Source: Oscillospiraceae bacterium
GTDB lineage: Bacteria > Bacillota > Clostridia > Oscillospirales > Oscillospiraceae
Direction: 5' to 3'
DNA length: 36,172 bases
Assembly: GCA_017541995.1 (NCBI GenBank)
Contig: JAFXYD010000058.1
Span: forward strand, 1 to 36,172
The position numbers and the translations under genes were made by a program. Positions 17,173 through 29,119 of this stretch are shown here, piece after piece (the first letter of the stretch is position 1; the number at the start of each line of letters is the position of its first letter). Under the pieces are notes generated by a model that did no database searches, was not told the origin of the DNA, and saw nothing but the letters and a program-made list of their open reading frames with translations.

Positions 17173-17826
17173 ATGAAAACGATCATACTAAACGGCAGCC
17201 CCAGGAAGAACTGGAACACGGCGCTGCTGCTGCAGGAGGCCCGGAGGGGGGCGGAGTCGGCGGGCGCGGAGACGGAGTACGTCGAGCTGTTTGATCTCTC
17301 CTACACCGGCTGCCGCTCCTGTATGGCCTGCAAGCGGAAGGGCGGAGCGCGCTGCAAATGCTTCTGGAAGGACGATCTGTCTCCGCTGCTGGACCGGATC
17401 TTTGCCGCCGACGCTCTGATTCTGGGCTCCCCCATCTATCTGGGGGACGTGACCAGCCAGGTTCACGGCCTCATGGAGCGGCTGCGCTTCTGCACCCTGT
17501 CCTACGACGACTATTCCAACTACTTCACCGGCCGGGTCAACGTGGGCCTCATTCTGACCATGAACGCCTCGAAGGCCTACTATCGGCTTGCCTACCGGAA
17601 GAAGGCGGAGGAGCTGGCCGGGAGCTTCCGGGCGCTGAACGGCTCGGTGGAAATCCTGCCCTGCTGCGATACGCTCCAGGTTGCGGATTACAGCCGCTAC
17701 GACATGGCGAGCTTCAGCGAGGCCCACAAGAGAGCGTCCCGGGAAAAGCAGTTCCCCAGGGATTTGGCGGAGGCCTTCCGGATGGGAGCGAGGCTGAGCG
17801 GAGGGAAAGAAAATGCGGAAGGCTGA
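17173..17826 (+). CDS. NAD(P)H-dependent FMN reductase / flavodoxin-like protein
   Basis: A 217-residue flavodoxin-fold protein. It starts KTIILNGSPRKNWNTALLLQ, the phosphate-binding loop for FMN. CRSCMACKRKGGARCKC follows at residues 50-66, a cysteine cluster found in iron-sulfur flavoproteins (C-x2-C-x2-C...C). The second FMN loop is ILGSPIYLGDVTSQVHGLMERL. The cysteine spacing suggests an Fe-S cluster between flavins, with electron transfer from ferredoxin or NADH. The ATG is preceded by AAAGAGG. The next gene overlaps its end by 14 bases, tying it to a signalling phosphatase, an unusual pairing. Confidence 0.82.
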   Translation: MKTIILNGSPRKNWNTALLLQEARRGAESAGAETEYVELFDLSYTGCRSCMACKRKGGARCKCFWKDDLSPLLDRIFAADALILGSPIYLGDVTSQVHGLMERLRFCTLSYDDYSNYFTGRVNVGLILTMNASKAYYRLAYRKKAEELAGSFRALNGSVEILPCCDTLQVADYSRYDMASFSEAHKRASREKQFPRDLAEAFRMGARLSGGKENAEG

Positions 17827-19654
17827 AAAGAAGCAAGCCGGAGGCTCCGGAAGGGAGCGGGAGATTTCCCTTTCCCTGAAGCTGAATACCCTGATCGCGG
17901 TGATCATTCTGATCGTATCCGCGGTGCTGGTGACCATCAGCTATGATTCCTTCTCGAAAACCGCGTATATCCCCTATACCGAAAAGCTCCTGGAGGCGGA
18001 AAAGCGCCTGACAGACAGCACGGAGGATCCCCTGAGCGACGTGGTATTGCTCTACCGGACCACGGAGCTTCCGGGCTTCGACGAGGCCCGCAGCGAAACG
18101 GTGCGGACCCAGGATCCCAACGCGCTGAACGAGTTTCTGCTCCAATACGGGGTCGAACCGAAAACGGGACGTCTGACCAGGGTGGAGGAGCTGATGAAGC
18201 CCATTGTGGATGAAGACGGCAACGTGCACATGGCGGACGCCATCGACATGACGCAGTACTGGAACAACCTGGGCCTGGGGCTGACCTATTTCGTTTCCGA
18301 CCTGGGCATCACCCGGATCCAGATTGTGGTGGAGCGGGAAACCGGGGGATACCTGGAACTGCTGAAGATGGGCGGATCCATGGACAGCTTCATGGGCACC
18401 ACGATTCTGAGCTACGGCAATAAAACGGAGCACGCAGAGGCCGTGGAGCGGTATCTCGCGCAAAAGGAGCACAAGCCCTTCTTCCTTTCGGTGGAGGACC
18501 GGACCGAGCTGGTCCAGGTCACGCCGATGGAGCGGGACGGGCTTCGCTTCTATCTGATCTTCTCCGCCGACGTCACCGCCACCGAGGAGGCCCAGACCGC
18601 CTTCCTGCGGCGGAGCCTGCTGCTGGTGGGCCTGATGACCGTGGCAGCCATTACGGTCATGGTCTTTCTCCTGCGCCGCATGACCGTAAAGCCCTTGAAG
18701 GCGCTGACGCGGGCCGCGACGAATTTCGCGGCCGGCGGCGAGGGGGTCCGCCGGGAGGAAATCGCGGAGCTGGATATCCGCAGCAAGGACGAGATCGGCA
18801 CCCTCTACCGGGAGATCCGCTCCATGCAAGGCCGCATCATCGACAGCACGGAGCGCATCACCCGGATGACCGCGGAGAAGCAGCGCATCAGCACGGAGCT
18901 GGAGCTGGCGACCCGCATCCAGACGGACATGCTGCCCAACGTCTTCCCGCCCTTCCCGGAGCGGAAGGAATTTGACGTATACGCCCTCATGGACCCGGCA
19001 AAGGAGGTGGGGGGCGATTTCTACGACTTCTTCCTGGTGGACGAGGACCATCTGGCCCTGGTGATCGCGGACGTCTCCGGCAAGGGCGTTCCCGCGGCCC
19101 TGTTTATGATGATCTCCAAGATCATGGTGCAGGATCGGGTAAAGTCCGGCCTGTCTCCGGCCCAGGCGCTGCGGCAGGTCAACGAGGCGATTCTGGAGAA
19201 CAACAGCGAGGACATGTTCGTCACCGTCTGGCTGGGCGTGCTGGAGCTCTCCACCGGGAAGCTCACCGCCGCCAACGCGGGGCATGAGTACCCCGTTGTG
19301 ATGGAGCCCGGCGGGAGCTTCACCCTGTTCAAGGACCCCCACGGTTTTGTGGTGGGGGCCATGCCGGGAATGAAGTACCGGGAGTATGAGCTGCGTCTGG
19401 CCCCCGGGGCCAAGCTCTTCGTCTACACCGACGGGGTGCCGGAGGCCGCCAACGAGGAGGCGGAGCTGTTTGGAACCGCGCGGCTCCAGGCGGCGCTGAA
19501 CGACGCCGCGGCGGGGACGCCGGAGCAGATCCTGCGGCAGGTCCGGGCGGCAGTGGACGCCTTTGTGGGCCGGGCGGAGCAGTTCGACGATCTGACCATG
19601 CTCTGCCTGGAGTATCGGGGAACGGAGGCGCAGCCCTCGCGGCAGGAAGCTTGA
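17813..19654 (+). CDS. membrane SpoIIE/RsbU-type PP2C phosphatase with HAMP domain
   Basis: A 613-residue membrane signalling protein. One transmembrane helix lies at 24-44 (LNTLIAVIILIVSAVLVTIS), an extracellular sensor region at about 45-265, a second helix at 268-287, a HAMP linker at 288-345, and a short helical stretch (TELELATRIQTDMLP). The PPM catalytic domain spans 375-602. Metal-binding aspartates are seen in EVGGDFYDF (about D402), IADVSGKG (D420), YTDG (D540) and FDDLTM (D592). Proteins of this kind dephosphorylate anti-anti-sigma (STAS) proteins to turn on a partner-switching sigma response. No STAS or RsbW-like kinase gene is nearby, so its substrate is elsewhere. The sensor region matches no domain I know. 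Confidence 0.88.
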   Translation: MRKAEKKQAGGSGREREISLSLKLNTLIAVIILIVSAVLVTISYDSFSKTAYIPYTEKLLEAEKRLTDSTEDPLSDVVLLYRTTELPGFDEARSETVRTQDPNALNEFLLQYGVEPKTGRLTRVEELMKPIVDEDGNVHMADAIDMTQYWNNLGLGLTYFVSDLGITRIQIVVERETGGYLELLKMGGSMDSFMGTTILSYGNKTEHAEAVERYLAQKEHKPFFLSVEDRTELVQVTPMERDGLRFYLIFSADVTATEEAQTAFLRRSLLLVGLMTVAAITVMVFLLRRMTVKPLKALTRAATNFAAGGEGVRREEIAELDIRSKDEIGTLYREIRSMQGRIIDSTERITRMTAEKQRISTELELATRIQTDMLPNVFPPFPERKEFDVYALMDPAKEVGGDFYDFFLVDEDHLALVIADVSGKGVPAALFMMISKIMVQDRVKSGLSPAQALRQVNEAILENNSEDMFVTVWLGVLELSTGKLTAANAGHEYPVVMEPGGSFTLFKDPHGFVVGAMPGMKYREYELRLAPGAKLFVYTDGVPEAANEEAELFGTARLQAALNDAAAGTPEQILRQVRAAVDAFVGRAEQFDDLTMLCLEYRGTEAQPSRQEA

Positions 19655-21653: not shown

Positions 21654-21736
21654 GAAAAAAACAGAACAGAATCCCGCACATCCCGGGCTGTTTTGCGTCT
21701 ATACAGGTGAAAGGACCTTTCAAAGGAGGTGGCCCC

Positions 21737-22291
21737 ATGGAGGACGCCGGAATCATCACGCTCTTCGAGCAGCGAAACCAGGAGGCCGTCAGCGAGATCA
21801 GCCGGAAATACGGAGGCTACTGCCAGACCATCGCCGGGAATCTGCTGCCCCGGGAGGACGCGGAGGAGTGCGTCAACGACGCCTGGCTCCGGGCCTGGGA
21901 GAGCATACCCCCCGCCAAGCCCCAGTGCCTGCGGGCCTTCCTGGGAAAGATCACCCGCCGCCTGGCCATCAGCCGCTGGCGGAGCCTCCAGGCGCAGAAG
22001 CGGGGCGGAGGCATGAGCCTGCTGCTCTCGGAGCTGGAGGACTGCCTGCCGGATCCCAGAGGCGTGGAGGAGACGGTGGAGACCAGAACCCTTTCCCGGC
22101 TGATGTCGGACTGGCTTCGGGCCCTGCCCCGGGAGGACCGGGTGCTGTTTCTGCGGCGCTACTGGTACGGGACGACGGTGAAGGAGCTGGCGGCGGAGCT
22201 CGGCTGCACGGAAAACCAAATGGCCCAGCGGATGCGGAAGCTCCGGGTCGCGCTGCGGCTGCGATTGGAACAGGAGGGAATCTCAATATGA
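21737..22291 (+). CDS. ECF-type RNA polymerase sigma factor
   Basis: A 184-residue sigma-70 family protein from the ATG at 21737, with AAAGGAGG upstream. Region 2 is seen in LLPREDAEECVNDAWLRAWE (about residues 36-55) and the -10-binding FLGKITRRLAISRWR. Region 4 is LPREDRVLFLRRYWYGTTVK then ELAAELGCTENQMAQRMRKL. A 7-bp inverted repeat, TGAAAGG-A-CCTTTCA (21708-21722), lies just before the ribosome binding site and may regulate translation or transcription. The next gene overlaps by four bases (ATGA) and encodes a membrane protein, the normal position of its anti-sigma factor. Confidence 0.9.
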   Translation: MEDAGIITLFEQRNQEAVSEISRKYGGYCQTIAGNLLPREDAEECVNDAWLRAWESIPPAKPQCLRAFLGKITRRLAISRWRSLQAQKRGGGMSLLLSELEDCLPDPRGVEETVETRTLSRLMSDWLRALPREDRVLFLRRYWYGTTVKELAAELGCTENQMAQRMRKLRVALRLRLEQEGISI

Positions 22292-23751
22292 AATCAGAAA
22301 AACTGTATGACGCCATCACGGAGGTGGAGGAGCCCCTGGTGGAGGAAGCCGCGGCCCCTCTGGAAAAGCGGAAGAAAAAAGCCCTCCGGCTGCGCTGGGT
22401 CAGCGCCATTGCCGCTGTGCTGGCCCTGGCCATTCTGCTGACGGCGGTGCTCCGGCCCGGACGGGAGGGAAGCCTGACGGCCTACGCCCTGGAAAGCCCC
22501 GTCTACCCGGCCACCGCTCCCTACCCGGACGTGAGCGCCCTGATGAATGGCGAGAACGTGGATCAAAGCAAGCTGGAGCAGGAGTATGAGGCCTGGGAGC
22601 ACGCTCGGTGGCAGCGGGTAGCGGCCAAAAACAGCTACTCCGCCGCTGAGCTGAGGCACTATCTGCAGGCCGCCATTCCGGCCTATCTGGGGGGGCACGA
22701 GGGAGAGAACGCGGCCTGCTCGCCGCTGAACCTCTACCTGGCCCTGGCGATGCTGGCGGAGACCACAGAAGGGGAGAGCCGGGCCCAGCTCCTCTCCCTG
22801 CTGGGGACGCAGGACATGGACAGCCTGCGGAGCCTGTGCGAAAATCTCTTCGCGGCCAACTACGTGGACGACGGGGCCGACAAGTCCCTGCTGGCCGCGG
22901 CAATCTGGCTGCGGGAGGAGATGGACTACAAGACCGAGACCCTGCAGCGCCTGGCGCAGAGCTACTACGCCGCCTCCTTCCGGGGGCCCATGGGCAGCGA
23001 GGACTACGACGCCCAGCTGCGGGAATGGATCAACGCGCAGACCGGAAACCGTCTGACGGAGCAGACCAAGAGCCTGGCCTTCGACCCCAGAACCGTCCTG
23101 GCTCTGACCACCACCGTGGACTTCACGGCCCACTGGTACGCAGCCTTCGAGCCCGAAAGAACTGAGGACGCCGACTTCCACGCCGGGAAGGGGGATCTGC
23201 CCTGCAAGATGATGCGCATGGACGACACGGGGAGCTACTATTGGGGTCGGCAGTTCGGCGCCGTGGACCTGCAGTTCAAGGAGAACGGCAGCATGCGCTT
23301 CCTGCTGCCGGACGAGGGGGTGAGCCCCGAGGCCCTGCTGCGGGACCCGGAGGCCATCTCCTTCCTGCTGAGCTCCGGCTATGATGACTGGGAGCAGAAG
23401 AAGAGCCTGATTATCCACCTGGGGCTGCCCAAGTTTGACGTTTCCTCCCAGCTCTCCCTGGAGCAGAGCCTGAAGGAGCTGGGGATCACCGCTGCCTTCG
23501 ACCCGGAGACCGCGGATTTCAGCCCCCTGACGGACAGCGAGGGCGTCTTCCTCTCCCAGGTGAAGCACGGCGTCCGGGTGGCCGTGGACGAGGAGGGCGT
23601 CACCGCCTCCGCCGTCACCATGCTCATCGGCGCCGGAGCCGCGATGCCCCCCGACGAGGAGGTGGATTTCACCCTGGACCGCCCCTTCCTCTTCGCCATC
23701 TACGGCATGGACAATCTGCCCCTCTTCGTGGGCATTGTGAATCAGCCGTAA
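22288..23751 (+). CDS. membrane-anchored serpin in the anti-sigma position
   Basis: A 487-residue protein. Residues 1-36 form a short charged cytoplasmic tail (MKSEKLYDAITEVEEPLVEE, KRKKKALRLRW), 37-55 are a transmembrane helix, and the rest is exported. The exported part is a full serpin: ACSPLNLYLALAMLAE, the breach/shutter segment, the hinge VDEEGVTASAVT (434-444), and the end signature FTLDRPFLFAI. By canonical numbering P1-P1' would be A451-A452, small residues suited to an elastase- or subtilisin-like protease. The tail and helix resemble the anti-sigma-like proteins that follow ECF genes in this group of bacteria. It may therefore sense proteases and control the sigma factor, or simply guard the cell surface. 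Overlap with the sigma gene is ATGA. Confidence 0.9.
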   Translation: MKSEKLYDAITEVEEPLVEEAAAPLEKRKKKALRLRWVSAIAAVLALAILLTAVLRPGREGSLTAYALESPVYPATAPYPDVSALMNGENVDQSKLEQEYEAWEHARWQRVAAKNSYSAAELRHYLQAAIPAYLGGHEGENAACSPLNLYLALAMLAETTEGESRAQLLSLLGTQDMDSLRSLCENLFAANYVDDGADKSLLAAAIWLREEMDYKTETLQRLAQSYYAASFRGPMGSEDYDAQLREWINAQTGNRLTEQTKSLAFDPRTVLALTTTVDFTAHWYAAFEPERTEDADFHAGKGDLPCKMMRMDDTGSYYWGRQFGAVDLQFKENGSMRFLLPDEGVSPEALLRDPEAISFLLSSGYDDWEQKKSLIIHLGLPKFDVSSQLSLEQSLKELGITAAFDPETADFSPLTDSEGVFLSQVKHGVRVAVDEEGVTASAVTMLIGAGAAMPPDEEVDFTLDRPFLFAIYGMDNLPLFVGIVNQP

Positions 23752-23765
23752 TTCGGAATCATAAG

Positions 23766-23798
23766 ACGCGCCCATGACCACAGCGGTCATGGGCGCGT
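23766..23798. terminator. perfect 14-bp hairpin after the serpin gene
   Basis: ACGCGCCCATGACC pairs with GGTCATGGGCGCGT around ACAGC, 15 bases after the stop. The following sequence is only moderately T-rich (TTGTGCTGTTC). From 23799 to 24021 no gene is seen; the last 90 bases become strongly T-rich. Confidence 0.7.
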
Positions 23799-24021
23799 TT
23801 GTGCTGTTCGGAAAGGGCGGGCGGAAGCGTCGGCGGCCTGCCGGGGCTTGGGATCACGGCCTGGGCAGCTGATCCTGATTCCAGAGCGCCCCCTTCTCCG
23901 CGTCGGCCCGGGGAGGCCAGGTCCATCATCCGGTCCGTCTGCCTCCAGTATAACATCTCAAGGGTACAAAATTATTCCTTTTTATTCCTTTATTTCTTTT
24001 TCCGCAAGTGAAAAATTATCG

Positions 24022-24148
24022 TTGCCTTTTTTTGCAAGATATGATAGGATAACAATAAGAATACCATAGGCGCAGCATACCCTTTTGGCGGTTTTTGGAC
24101 TGGGTGGGGCTGCGTCGGGTATGGAACAGATCCGGGAGGGCGATAACA
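24022..24148 (+). promoter_or_regulatory. promoter and structured leader of the rnf operon
   Basis: TTGCCT (24022-24027), 17 bases, TAGGAT (24045-24050). The leader contains CGCAG (24071-24075) and CATACCC (24076-24082), which can pair with CTGCG (24110-24114) and GGGTATG (24117-24123). The two helices cross, so they form either a pseudoknot or alternative structures. GGAGGG at 24135-24140 serves the GTG start of rnfC. The leader matches no riboswitch class I know. Confidence 0.5.
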
Positions 24149-25504
24149 GTGAATTTAACCTTTCGCGGCGGGGTCCATCCCAAGGGGCGGAAGGAGCTGA
24201 GCAGGGAAGCCCCCCTGCGCCGCTTCGATCCGGCTCCCGGCGAGATGATATTCCCCCTGGCACAGCACATCGGCAAGCCCGCCAAGGCGGCGGTCAAGAA
24301 AAACGATCCCGTTCTGGTGGGCCAGAAGCTGGGTGAGGCGGACGGCTTTGTCTCCGCCTGCGTCATCAGCTCCTGCTCCGGCAAGGTCAAGGCCATTGAG
24401 AAACGGCGCACCATTGCCGGCACCATGACCGAATGTGTCGTGGTGGAAAACGACGGTCTCTACACCCCCATCGAGGGTCTGGGCCGCCGTGAGGATCCCA
24501 ACACTCTGACCAACCAGGACATTCTCAAGCGAGTAAAAGAGGCCGGCATCGTGGGCCTGGGCGGCGCGGGCTTCCCCACCCACGTGAAGCTGGCCCCCAA
24601 GGCGCCGGATCAGATCCGCTATCTCATCGCCAACGGCGCCGAGTGCGAGCCCTACATCACCTGCAACGACCAGCTCATGCGCAGCCGGGCGGCGGGCATT
24701 GTGGAGGGCCTGGAGCTGACGCTGCGGCTCTTCCCCAACGCGGAATGCGTCGTCGGCATCGAGGACAACAAGCCCGAGGCCATTGCCGCCATGGAAAAGG
24801 CGGTGAAGGGAAAGGCCCGGATGCGGGTCCTGCCCCTGCACACCAAGTACCCCCAGGGCGGTGAGCGCAGTCTGATCCGGGTGGTCTCCGGCATCGACTT
24901 CCCGGTCTCCATGCTCCCGGCGGACGTGGGCTGCATCGTGCTGAACGTGGGCACCGCCTACGCCATCGGCCGGGCCGTGGCCTGGAACGAGCCCCTGTTT
25001 GAGCACGTGCTCACCGTCACCGGCGAGGCGGTCCGGGTCCCCGGCAACTTCATCGCCCGGGACGGCACCACCTTCGCCCAGCTTCTGGAGGCCTGCGGCG
25101 GCCTGAAGGAGGGCGTCACCCCCGCCAAGGCCCTCTCCGGCGGCCCCATGATGGGCGTGGCCGTGGGCTCTCTGGACGTACCCATCCAGAAGAATACCAA
25201 CGCCCTGACCCTGCTGGCGGTGGATCCTGTGGAAAAGGCCGAGAAGGATCAGACCTTCTGCCTCCACTGCGGCCGCTGCGCCACGGTCTGCCCCAACGGT
25301 CTGGTGCCCGCTCTGATGGCGGACGCCATCCACATGAAGAACTGGGAGCGCTATGAAAAGAAGCTCTACGGTCTGGACTGCATCGCCTGCGGCTCCTGCA
25401 CCTACATCTGCCCGGCCCGTCGGCCCCTGACCCAGATGTTCAAGCAGACCAAGGCGGAGATCATGGCCCGCAAGCGGGCGGAGCAGGCAGGAGGTAAGAA
25501 ATGA
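24149..25504 (+). CDS. rnfC: Rnf complex subunit RnfC (NADH- and FMN-binding)
   Basis: A 451-residue peripheral subunit of the ion-translocating ferredoxin:NAD+ oxidoreductase. A GTG start at 24149 follows GGAGGG; the frame's upstream ATG is in the leader. The N-terminus (FRGGVHPKGRKELS) is typical. GLGGAGFPTHVK (136-147) is the nucleotide/flavin site and NGAECEPYIT (162-171) the family signature. Two 4Fe-4S motifs lie near the end: CLHCGRCATVCP (C371, 374, 377, 381) and CIACGSCTYICP (C411, 414, 417, 421). It exchanges electrons with NAD on the cytoplasmic side. First gene of rnfC-D/G-E-A-B, overlapping the next by four bases. Confidence 0.95.
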   Translation: MNLTFRGGVHPKGRKELSREAPLRRFDPAPGEMIFPLAQHIGKPAKAAVKKNDPVLVGQKLGEADGFVSACVISSCSGKVKAIEKRRTIAGTMTECVVVENDGLYTPIEGLGRREDPNTLTNQDILKRVKEAGIVGLGGAGFPTHVKLAPKAPDQIRYLIANGAECEPYITCNDQLMRSRAAGIVEGLELTLRLFPNAECVVGIEDNKPEAIAAMEKAVKGKARMRVLPLHTKYPQGGERSLIRVVSGIDFPVSMLPADVGCIVLNVGTAYAIGRAVAWNEPLFEHVLTVTGEAVRVPGNFIARDGTTFAQLLEACGGLKEGVTPAKALSGGPMMGVAVGSLDVPIQKNTNALTLLAVDPVEKAEKDQTFCLHCGRCATVCPNGLVPALMADAIHMKNWERYEKKLYGLDCIACGSCTYICPARRPLTQMFKQTKAEIMARKRAEQAGGKK

Positions 25505-27045
25505 ATCAGAGACTGAACCTTTCCGCCGGCCCCCACGTAAGGGACGTCTGGACTACCTCCTTTATTATGAGGATGGTTCTGCTGGCTCTGATGCCGGCCA
25601 CCGTCATCGGCGTCATCACCTTCGGCCTGCCTGCCCTCTGGGTGATCCTGGCCTCGGTGATCTCCGCCGTGGGCACGGAATTCATCTTTGACAAGCTCAC
25701 CGGCAGGGGCGACACCTGGAAGGACGGCTCCGCGGCGGTGACGGGCCTGCTGCTGGCCCTGACCCTCTCCGCCCAGACCCCCCTCTACGCCCCCATCATC
25801 GGCGCTATCTTCGCCATTCTGGTGGTGAAATGCGCCTTCGGCGGCCTGGGCAAGAACTTCATCAACCCCGCCCTGGCGGCCCGCTGCTTCCTTCTGATCT
25901 CCTTCCCCAGCGCCATGACGGTCTACGGCATCGACGGCGTGGCCTCCGCCACCCCCTGCGCGGACCTGGCGGCGGGCAAGGTGGTGAACATCACCTCCAT
26001 GTTCCTGGGCTCCGCCAACGGCGACATCGGCGGCTCCATCCTGGGCCTGCTCATCGGCGGCCTGGCGCTCTGGGCCTTCGACATCATCCACGGCCAGATC
26101 TGCCTCACCGTCCTGGCCTCCTTCACCGTGGTCATCGGCCTCTTCGGCAGCAAGGGCTTTGACCCCGCCTTCCTGGCCGCCCATCTCTGCGGCGGCGGCG
26201 TGGTGCTGGGCGCCTTCTTCATGGCCACCGACTACGTCACCTCCCCCATGAGCCGCCTGGGCCAGACCTTCTACGGTGTGATGATCGGCATCCTGGGGGC
26301 CCTGTTCCGCATCTTCGGCTCCGCGGCGGACTCCTTCAGCTACTCCATCATCACCGCCAACCTCTTCGTCCCCATCATCGACCACTACATTGTGGATAAG
26401 CCCTACGCCTACCGGCGCCAGGCCATCGACCGCCGCACCCCGGGCTGGACGAAAAAGCCTCTGTCCCAGCGGATCCCCAAGCCCGTCATTGCCCTGACGG
26501 TCATCGCCCTCATCGCGGGCCTGGCCCTCTCCGGCGCCTACTCTCTGACCAAGGACACCATCGACGCCCAGAAGCAGGCCGCCTCCGCGGCAGCCTACAA
26601 GGCGGTGCTGCCCGAGGCCGAGAGCTTCGAGTCCCAGAGCGCCAAGGTGGAGCTGCTGAACGGCGAGGTCTACGGCTCCGGCTTCGGACGGGTCTACATC
26701 AACGAGGCCCTGGTGGGCAGGGACGCCGCCGGCAACGTGGTGGGCTACGCGGTCTCCGTTACCTCCGCCGAGGGCTACGACGGCAACGTCACCCTGTCCC
26801 TGGGCGTCAGCGCCGCGGGCAAGATCAACGCCATCTCCTTCACCGAGCTCCACGAGACCCCCGGCAAGGGCATGCTTTGGAGCGAGGCGGAGCATCTGAC
26901 GAAGTTCAACGGCAAGGACGCCGTGAAGCTGACCCTGGGTCAGGAGATTGACGGCATCACCGGCGTCACCATCACCTCCAAGGCCGTGGTCAACGCCGTG
27001 AACGCCGGTCTGGACTTCATCAACACACAGTTAAGGGGGGAGTAA
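25501..27045 (+). CDS. fused Rnf subunits RnfD and RnfG
   Basis: A 514-residue protein joining two normally separate subunits. Residues 1-300 are RnfD, a multi-helix membrane protein; residues 325-514 are RnfG, with one membrane helix (328-348) and an exported FMN-binding domain. Both covalent-FMN motifs (D-x-x-S/T-G-A-T type) are present in variant form: DGVASAT (acceptor T151) in RnfD and DGITGVT (acceptor T490) in RnfG, the latter with Val for Ala. The linker (301-325, basic) lies in the cytoplasm. The frame is continuous with no frameshift, and no separate rnfG exists in the operon. Fusion would fix the flavin-to-flavin distance. An ApbE flavin transferase must be encoded elsewhere. Confidence 0.93.
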   Translation: MNQRLNLSAGPHVRDVWTTSFIMRMVLLALMPATVIGVITFGLPALWVILASVISAVGTEFIFDKLTGRGDTWKDGSAAVTGLLLALTLSAQTPLYAPIIGAIFAILVVKCAFGGLGKNFINPALAARCFLLISFPSAMTVYGIDGVASATPCADLAAGKVVNITSMFLGSANGDIGGSILGLLIGGLALWAFDIIHGQICLTVLASFTVVIGLFGSKGFDPAFLAAHLCGGGVVLGAFFMATDYVTSPMSRLGQTFYGVMIGILGALFRIFGSAADSFSYSIITANLFVPIIDHYIVDKPYAYRRQAIDRRTPGWTKKPLSQRIPKPVIALTVIALIAGLALSGAYSLTKDTIDAQKQAASAAAYKAVLPEAESFESQSAKVELLNGEVYGSGFGRVYINEALVGRDAAGNVVGYAVSVTSAEGYDGNVTLSLGVSAAGKINAISFTELHETPGKGMLWSEAEHLTKFNGKDAVKLTLGQEIDGITGVTITSKAVVNAVNAGLDFINTQLRGE

Positions 27046-27046
27046 G

Positions 27047-27727
27047 ATGAACAAATATCTGGAACGGCTGTACAACGGCCTCATCAAGGAAAACCCCACC
27101 TTAGTGCTGATGCTGGGCATGTGTCCCACCCTGGCGGTCTCCACGCGAGCTGCCAACGGCATCGGCATGGGTCTGTCCACCCTGGCGGTGCTGGCGCTCT
27201 CCAACCTGGTGATCTCCCTGCTGCGCAAGGTGATTCCCGACCAGGTGCGGCTGCCGGCCTACATCGTCATCGTGGCCTCCCTGGTCACCGTGACGGAGCT
27301 GCTGATCGAGGCCTATCTGCCCTCGGTCTATGAGGCTCTGGGCATCTACATCCCGCTGATCGTGGTGAACTGCATCATCCTGGGCCGGGCCGAGGCCTAC
27401 GCCAACAAGAACGGCCCCCTGCTCTCCATTATGGACGGCATCGGCATGGGCCTGGGCTTCACCGTGGCCCTGACCCTGGCCGGCGCGGTCCGGGAGATCC
27501 TGGGCAGCGGCACCTGCTTCGGCCTTCGGATCCTGCCCGAGACCGTGGAGCCCATGGGCATCTTCATCCAGCCTCCCGGCGCCTTCCTGGTGATCGCCCT
27601 GTTCATCATCATCATGAACGCCATCGGCATCAAGACCCGCCAGCGCCAGCTGGTGGAGAGCGGCTGCGACGGCTGCTGCGCCAACTGCGCGGCCAAGTGT
27701 GAGGCCCCCAAGGAGGTGGCGAAATGA
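27047..27727 (+). CDS. rnfE: Rnf complex subunit RnfE
   Basis: A 226-residue membrane protein with six hydrophobic segments, starting one base after the RnfD-G stop and preceded by GGGGGAG. KENPTLVLMLGMCPTLAVST is the family start with the conserved membrane cysteine; the second half-repeat carries IPLIVVNCIILGRAEAYA. RnfE and RnfA form inverted partners around an Fe-S centre in the membrane. The C-terminal tail CDGCCANCAAKC (residues about 206-217) is an extra cysteine cluster, found in some anaerobe RnfE/NqrD proteins or possibly unusual here. Confidence 0.95.
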   Translation: MNKYLERLYNGLIKENPTLVLMLGMCPTLAVSTRAANGIGMGLSTLAVLALSNLVISLLRKVIPDQVRLPAYIVIVASLVTVTELLIEAYLPSVYEALGIYIPLIVVNCIILGRAEAYANKNGPLLSIMDGIGMGLGFTVALTLAGAVREILGSGTCFGLRILPETVEPMGIFIQPPGAFLVIALFIIIMNAIGIKTRQRQLVESGCDGCCANCAAKCEAPKEVAK

Positions 27728-28305
27728 ACAACAATCTGCTTCTGATCCTGCTCTCCGGCGCCCTCATCAACAACGTGGTGCTGAGCCAGTTTTTGGGCAT
27801 CTGCTCCTTCCTGGGCGTGTCCAAGCAGATGAAGGCCTCCGTCTCCCTGGGCGGCGCGGTGGTTTTCGTCATCACCATCGCCTCCGCGGTGGCCTGGCTG
27901 CTGTACAACTTCGTGCTGGAGCCCCTGGGCCTGGATTTCATGAAGACCATCGTCTTCATCCTGGTGATCGCGGCCCTGGTGCAGATCGTGGAGATGTTCC
28001 TGAAAAAGAGCTCTCCGGCGGTCTACAAGGCCCTGGGCATCTTCCTGCCTCTGATTACCACCAACTGCGCCGTGCTGGGCGTGGCCCTCACCAACGTGCA
28101 GAACGGCTACAACTTCATCGAGTCCGTGCTGGCGGGCTTCGGCACCGCCCTGGGCTACACCCTGGCCATCGTGCTGCTGGCGGGCATCCGCAGCCGCATC
28201 AACGAGGAGGATCTGCCCGCCCCGCTGCGGGGGGCGCCCATCGTTCTGATTGCCGCCGCCCTGATGTCCATTGCCTTCATGGGCTTCTCCGGCCTGTCGT
28301 TCTAA
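27724..28305 (+). CDS. rnfA: Rnf complex subunit RnfA
   Basis: A 193-residue membrane protein with six helices. It starts inside the end of rnfE (ATGA overlap). INNVVLSQFLGICSFLGVSK and ITTNCAVLGVALTN are the family motifs with the two membrane cysteines that share an Fe-S cluster with RnfE. The role is electron transfer across the membrane. AAGGAGG at its 3' end is the ribosome binding site of rnfB. Confidence 0.95.
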   Translation: MNNNLLLILLSGALINNVVLSQFLGICSFLGVSKQMKASVSLGGAVVFVITIASAVAWLLYNFVLEPLGLDFMKTIVFILVIAALVQIVEMFLKKSSPAVYKALGIFLPLITTNCAVLGVALTNVQNGYNFIESVLAGFGTALGYTLAIVLLAGIRSRINEEDLPAPLRGAPIVLIAAALMSIAFMGFSGLSF

Positions 28306-28315
28306 GGAGGGTGCC

Positions 28316-29119
28316 ATGGAAATTATTCTGATTACCACCCTGGTCATCACCGTCATCGGTATGATCGTGGGCGCGGGCCTGGTCTTCACGGGGAAGCGAT
28401 TCGCCGTGGAGGTGGACGAGCGGGAGGCCGCCGTCCGGGAGGCCCTGCCCGGCAATAACTGCGGCGCCTGCGGCTACGCCGGCTGCGACGCCATGGCCGC
28501 CGCCATCGCCCAGGGCGAGGCTCCGGTGAACGGCTGCCCAGTGGGCGGCGCTCCCGTGGCGGAGAAAATCGGCGCCATCATGGGCGTGGAGGCCGGCGCC
28601 GTGGAGCGGCGGATCGCCTTCGTCCGCTGCAAGGGCAGCTGCGACTACACCAAAAGCCAGGGCAACTACATCGGCGTTCCCGACTGCGCCAGTGCGGTGC
28701 GGGCGGGTCTGGCCCTGAAGGACTGCGACTACGGCTGCCTGGGCCTGGGCTCCTGCGTGAAGGCCTGCCCCGAGCAGGCCATCCGGATGGTGGACGGCAT
28801 CGCCGTGGTGGACCGCCGCCGCTGCGTGGGCTGCGGCCTCTGCGCCAAGGCCTGCCCCAAGGGCCTCATCGAGCTGATCCCCGAGCGCAACCGGGTGGCG
28901 GTCCGCTGCTCCAACAAGGACAGAGGCCCCCAGGTGAAGCAGGTCTGCTCCACGGGCTGCATCGGCTGTATGCTCTGCACCAAGCAGTGTGAAACCGGGG
29001 CCATCACCGTCACCAACAATCTGGCCCACATCGACTACGCGGCCTGTACCCAGTGCGGCAAGTGCGCGGAGAAGTGCCCCGTGAAGGTGATTACGCCCCC
29101 CGTGGGGTCGAGTTCTTAG
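28316..29119 (+). CDS. rnfB: Rnf complex subunit RnfB (polyferredoxin, ferredoxin entry)
   Basis: A 267-residue protein from the ATG at 28316 after AAGGAGG. One N-terminal membrane helix (3-23) is followed by the 4Fe-4S motif NNCGACGYAGCDAM...GCPVG (about residues 46-75). Several ferredoxin-like clusters then follow: CLGLGSCVKACP, CVGCGLCAKACP, CIGCMLCTKQCE and CTQCGKCAEKCP. It takes electrons from reduced ferredoxin and passes them into the membrane part. Its length agrees with clostridial RnfB, which has more clusters than the proteobacterial form. Last gene of the rnf operon. Confidence 0.95.
   Translation: MEIILITTLVITVIGMIVGAGLVFTGKRFAVEVDEREAAVREALPGNNCGACGYAGCDAMAAAIAQGEAPVNGCPVGGAPVAEKIGAIMGVEAGAVERRIAFVRCKGSCDYTKSQGNYIGVPDCASAVRAGLALKDCDYGCLGLGSCVKACPEQAIRMVDGIAVVDRRRCVGCGLCAKACPKGLIELIPERNRVAVRCSNKDRGPQVKQVCSTGCIGCMLCTKQCETGAITVTNNLAHIDYAACTQCGKCAEKCPVKVITPPVGSSS

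Follow-up and report, generated by a model that had tools for sequence, protein, structure and literature searches.

A transmembrane serpin encoded behind an ECF sigma factor as a candidate protease-sensing anti-sigma factor in Oscillospiraceae

What does a serpin do in the place where an anti-sigma factor is usually encoded? This question is raised by two overlapping genes on contig JAFXYD010000058.1 of an Oscillospiraceae bacterium (assembly GCA_017541995.1), of which we analyzed a stretch of 36,172 nucleotides, hereafter the window; all features given below are on its forward strand. The first gene (21737-22291) encodes an ECF sigma factor of 184 aa (TIGR02937, E 1.3e-18), in which Pfam finds Sigma70_r2 (3.5e-9) and Sigma70_r4_2 (1.4e-8). 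The second (22288-23751) encodes a transmembrane serpin of 487 aa, the proposed anti-sigma factor. Based on gene comparison and on analogy with RsiV, we put the probability at roughly 0.6 that the two genes form a signalling cassette, in which a membrane anti-sigma factor carries a serpin as a protease sensor. This reading draws on the pairing of the genes across genomes, a tail family shared with other ECF partners, conserved hinge and shutter residues, and a conserved promoter-like block upstream of the operon; we infer that the tail binds the sigma factor, that the protease is trapped, which way the signal runs and how it crosses the membrane.

The order of parts in the 487-residue protein is a cytoplasmic tail (residues 1-37, 22288-22398), one membrane helix (about residues 38-56, 22399-22455), a linker (residues 57-137, 22456-22698), and a full serpin domain (residues 138-487, 22699-23748). 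PF00079 matches residues 138-487 with an E-value of 7.5e-61 and covers model positions 19-370 of 370, with the first 18 unmatched; we count the domain as complete. The Pfam scan of this protein returned nothing besides PF00079; no NCBIfam family and no described anti-sigma domain model matched. In 100 non-redundant sigma-serpin pairs, the 15 residues before the helix hold a mean of 5.9 K/R and the 15 after it 1.3, and the count is higher before the helix in 97 of the 100 pairs, an excess that fits a cytoplasmic N-terminus. By hydropathy and K/R bias, the window protein thus has the layout of a single-pass anti-sigma factor, with an N-terminal cytoplasmic segment, one helix and an outer domain. 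It also has the gene position of one, directly beside the ECF gene, since the sigma stop codon and the serpin start codon (ATG at 22288) share the letters ATGA; co-transcription is predicted from this gene order. A preliminary description of the locus had claimed both the ATGA overlap and the cytoplasmic tail with a single membrane helix, and both are borne out here. A terminator-like inverted repeat followed by TTT (23766-23800, read by eye from the sequence) appears to end the two-gene operon.

The named genome record with the nearest relative, L214, was compared together with 4 kb on either side. DNA similarity to the window is confined to the two genes plus 39 matching bp where the promoter and leader lie, which places the flanking genes outside the cassette. 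Upstream of the cassette, 17813-19654 encodes a SpoIIE-type phosphatase with a HAMP domain that is not kept beside the cassette in L214. The gene run downstream, at 24095-29119, is presumably an Rnf complex operon, judging from the translations. The nearest relative itself (L214:4001-5818) has about 120 extra residues C-terminal to the serpin domain, as does the serpin of L102.

Recurrence of the gene pair and of its cytoplasmic tail

The pair recurs widely. In the genomes of the genus and a sample of the family, at least 54 serpin genes immediately follow an ECF gene, from at least 25 genus codes. At least 15 of these pairs come from the genus, where 13 of 23 genomes have one, and at least 39 from 33 further genomes of the family. 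Within the family sample, at least 35 of 200 genomes have a pair, including two genus genomes that are also in that sample. Serpins as such are present in nearly all of the genus genomes (22/23) and in about half of the sampled family genomes (107/200). These pair counts are lower bounds with some contig-edge matches outside the count, and the 54 include two truncated genes (L212, L213). The overlap is exactly 4 bases in 38 of the 54 pairs, which argues that the neighbourhood of sigma and serpin genes is not due to chance.

In named genome records, at least 500 relatives were found, and at the best 80 loci 55 of 85 serpin ORFs had an ECF gene directly upstream, 37 of the 55 with the exact 4-base overlap. 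The titles of the paired records include Oscillospiraceae, Lachnospiraceae, Flavonifractor, Pseudoflavonifractor, Oscillibacter, Cuneatibacter, Blautia and others, and the named-record set of 55 has 7 identical serpins in common with the set of 54. One Oscillospiraceae isolate with the cassette is Flavonifractor sp. AGMB03687 (L215). The usual anti-sigma position, as the preliminary description put it, is taken by a serpin protein in many genomes, and the survey of other genomes that it proposed shows the pairing to be recurrent. In a phylum-wide sample, serpins occurred in 75 of 398 genomes, and none of the 30 best-scoring serpin loci from these 75 genomes had an ECF gene upstream. The window's own assembly, which is 78% complete, has four serpins, and the other three start like lipoproteins.

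We noted some variations on the arrangement. L190, L201 and L209 encode serpins with a tail of the ECF-partner type and a membrane helix, and an upstream ECF gene was not found at these loci. L171, L218 and L222 each contain more than one tail-bearing or YP-type serpin, arranged in tandem, and in L171 and L222 a second tail-bearing serpin comes after the first.

The tail of the window protein matches no Pfam model. We derived a profile from the cytoplasmic segments of 93 coupled serpins, with the TM helix left out. Six non-serpin ECF partners from the window's own genome scored 15.5 to 39.6 bits with this profile, all above the best of 4867 scored shuffled-tail decoys (11.2 bits), and a seventh, L032, scored 24.4 bits. 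Five partners of more distant ECF sigma factors in the same genome scored 3.9 bits or less. The seven partners that match the tail profile adjoin exactly the seven sigma factors most similar to the window sigma factor, which score 213 to 95.9 bits against it, with the next at 67.2 (30 of the 37 region-4 matches in the genome compared). Six of the seven tail-sharing partners were scanned with Pfam and matched 0 families. Taken together, the tail profile and the sigma ranking indicate one sigma subgroup with one tail family and varied outer domains, the serpin being the outer domain in the window. As is expected of a single-pass anti-sigma factor, the N-terminal segment of the window protein is thus related to those of other ECF partners. 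Six pairs combine a second, different class of tail with a second class of sigma factor. In the region L241:4001-5347, a long charged repeat (ERGEQERRKQ-like) lies between the conserved start of the tail and the membrane helix.

Serpin domain, linker and the proposed switch

Hinge and shutter residues have known roles in inhibitory serpins, and Thr or Ser at P14 together with a small residue at P9 belongs to the classical inhibitory pattern. The hinge and reactive-centre loop of the window protein (residues 434-455, DEEGVTASAVTMLIGAGAAMPP, at 23587-23652, placed from the translation and the hinge columns) has Glu at P17, Gly at P15, small residues at P12-P10 and Thr at P8, as inhibitory hinges do, but Val at both P14 and P9. 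In 101 coupled or tail-bearing rows of the alignment, P17 is Glu in 98, P15 is Gly in 101, P12 is Ala or Gly in 101, P10 is Ala, Ser or Thr in 101, and P8 is Thr in 93, while at P14 98 rows have Val, Cys or Ile and 2 have Thr. P9 is mostly Tyr (30 of 52 parsed rows, with several rows misparsed). The Trp194 equivalent is Trp in all 101 rows. The loop sequences of coupled forms, departures at P14 and P9 included, recur in uncoupled relatives from the same clade.

At the shutter (equivalents of Ser56 and Asn186), the 101 coupled or tail-bearing rows have Asn/Thr or Asn/Ser in 77, Asn/Ala in 6, and the canonical Ser/Asn pair in 7, versus 100 canonical pairs in 131 uncoupled rows. Of all 232 rows, 107 have Ser/Asn and 101 have Asn/Thr or Asn/Ser, which is a reciprocal exchange, and such an exchange may keep the contact between the two positions. 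Judging from these residues, the hinge and shutter look competent for loop insertion except at P14 and P9. The earlier proposal of a serpin that changes shape on protease attack therefore stands in part: the hinge and shutter residues look suited to insertion, and P14 (Val/Cys/Ile) and P9 (mostly Tyr) are unlike the classical inhibitory hinge. We take P1 to be Ala451, a prediction made by counting 14 residues from P14, and elastase- or subtilisin-like proteases as targets would be a guess from this residue.

The linker carries a conserved strap motif, YPxxxxYP (residues 73-80), in which Y73 and P74 are invariant in 51 sequences. Of 100 non-redundant pairs, 97 have YP or FP within the linker, and the YP strap is present also in uncoupled relatives. 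The PDB sequences nearest to the serpin domain are conserpin and tengpin (tengpin E 5e-32), and tengpin, a Thermoanaerobacter serpin, also has an N-terminal extension. To our knowledge, tengpin is neither membrane-tethered nor coupled to a sigma factor. Its extension is described as docking near strand s1A and stabilizing the native state (PMC8233489), so the YP strap could by analogy respond to loop insertion.

A comparable system is RsiV of sigma-V in Bacillus subtilis, described as a single-pass anti-sigma factor whose outer domain binds, senses and inhibits lysozyme (PMC5014341) and which is subsequently cleaved by signal peptidase and degraded (PMC6066255). The window protein would share with RsiV the principle that the outer domain binds and inhibits the enzyme that is sensed, but its outer fold and its target differ, with Serpin as the only Pfam match. 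We considered AYA after the membrane helix as an RsiV-like signal-peptidase site and dropped it: AXA precedes the YP motif in 49 of 67 near-membrane forms, 23 of 30 far-linker forms and 12 of 19 uncoupled forms. With AXA about equally common in all forms, it is better seen as a feature of the strap, and there is no case for a signal-peptidase site. The genome does encode a site-2-type M50 protease (E 3.8e-55). Domains of the DUF3298 or DUF4179 type characterize the RsiV family, and Pfam found none in the window protein. Anti-sigma factors of the DUF4179 type are described as Firmicutes membrane anti-sigma factors with varied outer domains (PMC6066255), and unlike these, neither the window protein nor the six tail-sharing paralogous partners that were scanned match DUF4179.

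Siropins, which inhibit neutrophil elastase and proteinase 3 according to PMC5127057 and PMC8233489, and other gut bacterial serpins resemble the window serpin in their origin from gut Firmicutes and their small-residue hinges. Unlike it, siropins are described in the available parts of these two papers as intracellular or exported and without a sigma partner. Among open papers, searched by title and the start of the abstract, we found no report of a serpin anti-sigma factor, in agreement with the earlier expectation that it would be new.

In the proposed cassette, the short tail that the serpin protein has in the cytoplasm would keep the sigma factor inactive at the membrane, and the serpin domain would be exposed outside as a bait. 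A protease attacking the reactive-centre loop would be trapped or would trigger loop insertion, and the loop change, relayed through the strap and linker, would lead to loss of the anti-sigma factor, probably by regulated intramembrane proteolysis. The freed sigma factor would then drive at least its own operon. We suggest tentatively, at somewhat less than even odds, a more specific version, in which the stressed-to-relaxed transition of the serpin acts as a one-shot transmembrane switch: loop cleavage outside would displace the YP strap, and the altered linker would expose the anti-sigma factor to proteolysis, turning suicide inhibition into gene expression. If the widespread sigma-serpin cassette is what we propose, one group of serpins would act as receptors through which protease attack is signalled to the genome, and the principle of an anti-sigma factor that inhibits an enzyme and also serves as its receptor would extend from lysozyme to proteases.

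The alternative that survives best is that the tail is a true anti-sigma segment and the serpin outside does no more than bind a ligand or play a structural part, with another signal, such as envelope stress or a small ligand, and with loop insertion uninvolved. That other outer domains are found on this tail family, with 0 Pfam families in the 6 of 7 partners scanned, would agree with this, as would the departures of P14 and P9 from the classical hinge. However, the coupled forms keep P17, P15, P12, P10, P8, the invariant Trp and a paired exchange at the shutter, and within one clade they have loop sequences in common with uncoupled relatives. We regard this alternative as unlikely.

Promoters of coupled and uncoupled serpins

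Upstream of the sigma gene, at 21677-21703, there is a putative ECF-type promoter with a -35-like CACAT (21677-21681) and a -10-like GCGTCTATA (21695-21703). Of 101 usable regions upstream of ECF-serpin operons, 53 could be aligned on this -10, in a seed-led alignment without a shuffle control of that count, and an AACATTT-like block 18 nt upstream of the -10 is common to the 53 regions. A strict pattern, ACATN{12,15}GCGWCTATA, occurs once in the window's own assembly, at the window operon, and 0 times in the reversed control; being unique there, it gave no further regulon targets. A promoter-like block in this position fits autoregulation of the operon.

The leader contains a palindrome, TGAAAGG-A-CCTTTCA (21708-21722), of a type shared among leaders: inverted repeats of the form GAAAGG..CCTTT occur in 19 of 101 leaders, with 0.055 expected from mononucleotide shuffles. 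The CCTTT of the palindrome could also base-pair with AAAGG in the ribosome-binding site. The predicted RNA fold of 21708-21745 was no better than that of shuffled sequences (z 0.88). In ECF operons the GAAAGG..CCTTTC palindrome lies between the -10 and the ribosome-binding site, and it is also found in the leaders of L029, L030 and L013.

A matrix made from the operon promoter scored above threshold at some uncoupled serpins as well, 5 of 40 in the genus (0.1 expected) and 12 of 83 others (0.075 expected). On inspection the -35 of these matches differs (GGAAC), and we rejected them as instances of the same promoter; this -35 led to a search for a separate promoter of uncoupled serpins. GGAAC-N16/17-CGTC is present within 250 nt upstream of 78 of 124 uncoupled serpins (64 with N16, 14 with N17), versus 0.8 expected from shuffles and 5.9 from random windows, and 75 of the 78 sites are 20-72 nt upstream of the script-chosen start codon. 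The pattern is absent from the 110 nt upstream of 108 coupled operons. The genes behind it are mostly lipoprotein-like, for example L002, L003, L138 and L197. From their upstream sequences, the uncoupled serpins look as if they carry an ECF-like promoter of their own. An ECF sigma factor that reads GGAAC..CGTC was not found with the strict pattern, which has 4 sites in the window's own genome and 2 matches in the control; a variant pattern has 5 sites and 2 control matches. Across 8 chosen genomes, 7 have one GGAAC..CGTC site each, of which 3 are directly before an uncoupled serpin.

These promoters bear on another alternative, that the serpin is an effector: the sigma factor would drive a protease inhibitor that is tethered to the membrane and protects the cell, and the sigma factor would itself be controlled by something else. 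The ECF-driven appearance of uncoupled serpins (78/124) is in line with this, and so is the existence of tail-bearing serpins with no neighbouring ECF gene. For an effector, however, a signal peptide or lipobox would do, and the uncoupled relatives use one, while the coupled forms keep a tail common to other ECF partners as well as the 4-base overlap (38/54). We therefore think it rather improbable that the serpin is simply an effector.

Co-variation and apparent repeated joining of tail and serpin

For a comparison of distances we used 98 pairs, from which duplicates, short domains, L241 and L246 had been removed. Tail distance tracks sigma distance (r 0.73) more than serpin distance tracks sigma distance (r 0.35). 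The partial correlation of sigma and tail given the serpin is 0.69, compared to 0.16 for sigma and TM given the serpin and 0.21 for tail and serpin given the sigma factor; all three partials, including those that serve as contrasts, exceed 999 permutations. Leaving out the second tail class hardly changes the result (r 0.71, partial 0.69). Within the window's own genome, where there are only 8 sigma-tail pairs, with divergent and short tails, the tail does not follow the sigma factor (r 0.16, p 0.18), and in the same 8 pairs it is the TM region that follows it (r 0.62, p 0.005). It is very improbable that the tail serves only as an unspecific anchor in the membrane and that the gene order is an operon convenience, for although the tails are short and basic beside the helix and do not co-diverge with the sigma factor in these 8 pairs, shuffled tails of the same composition fall short of the profile score and the tail family tracks one sigma subgroup.

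A tree of 186 serpin domains has 15 changes between the coupled and uncoupled states, versus at least 43 in each of 50 label shuffles; the tree is a quick one without a mixture model, and gain and loss are not distinguishable from it. The coupled serpins are mostly in one large mixed clade, and L136, L140, L147 and the pair L153/L174 are among uncoupled serpins elsewhere. The joining of tail and serpin appears to have occurred at several separate places on the serpin tree.
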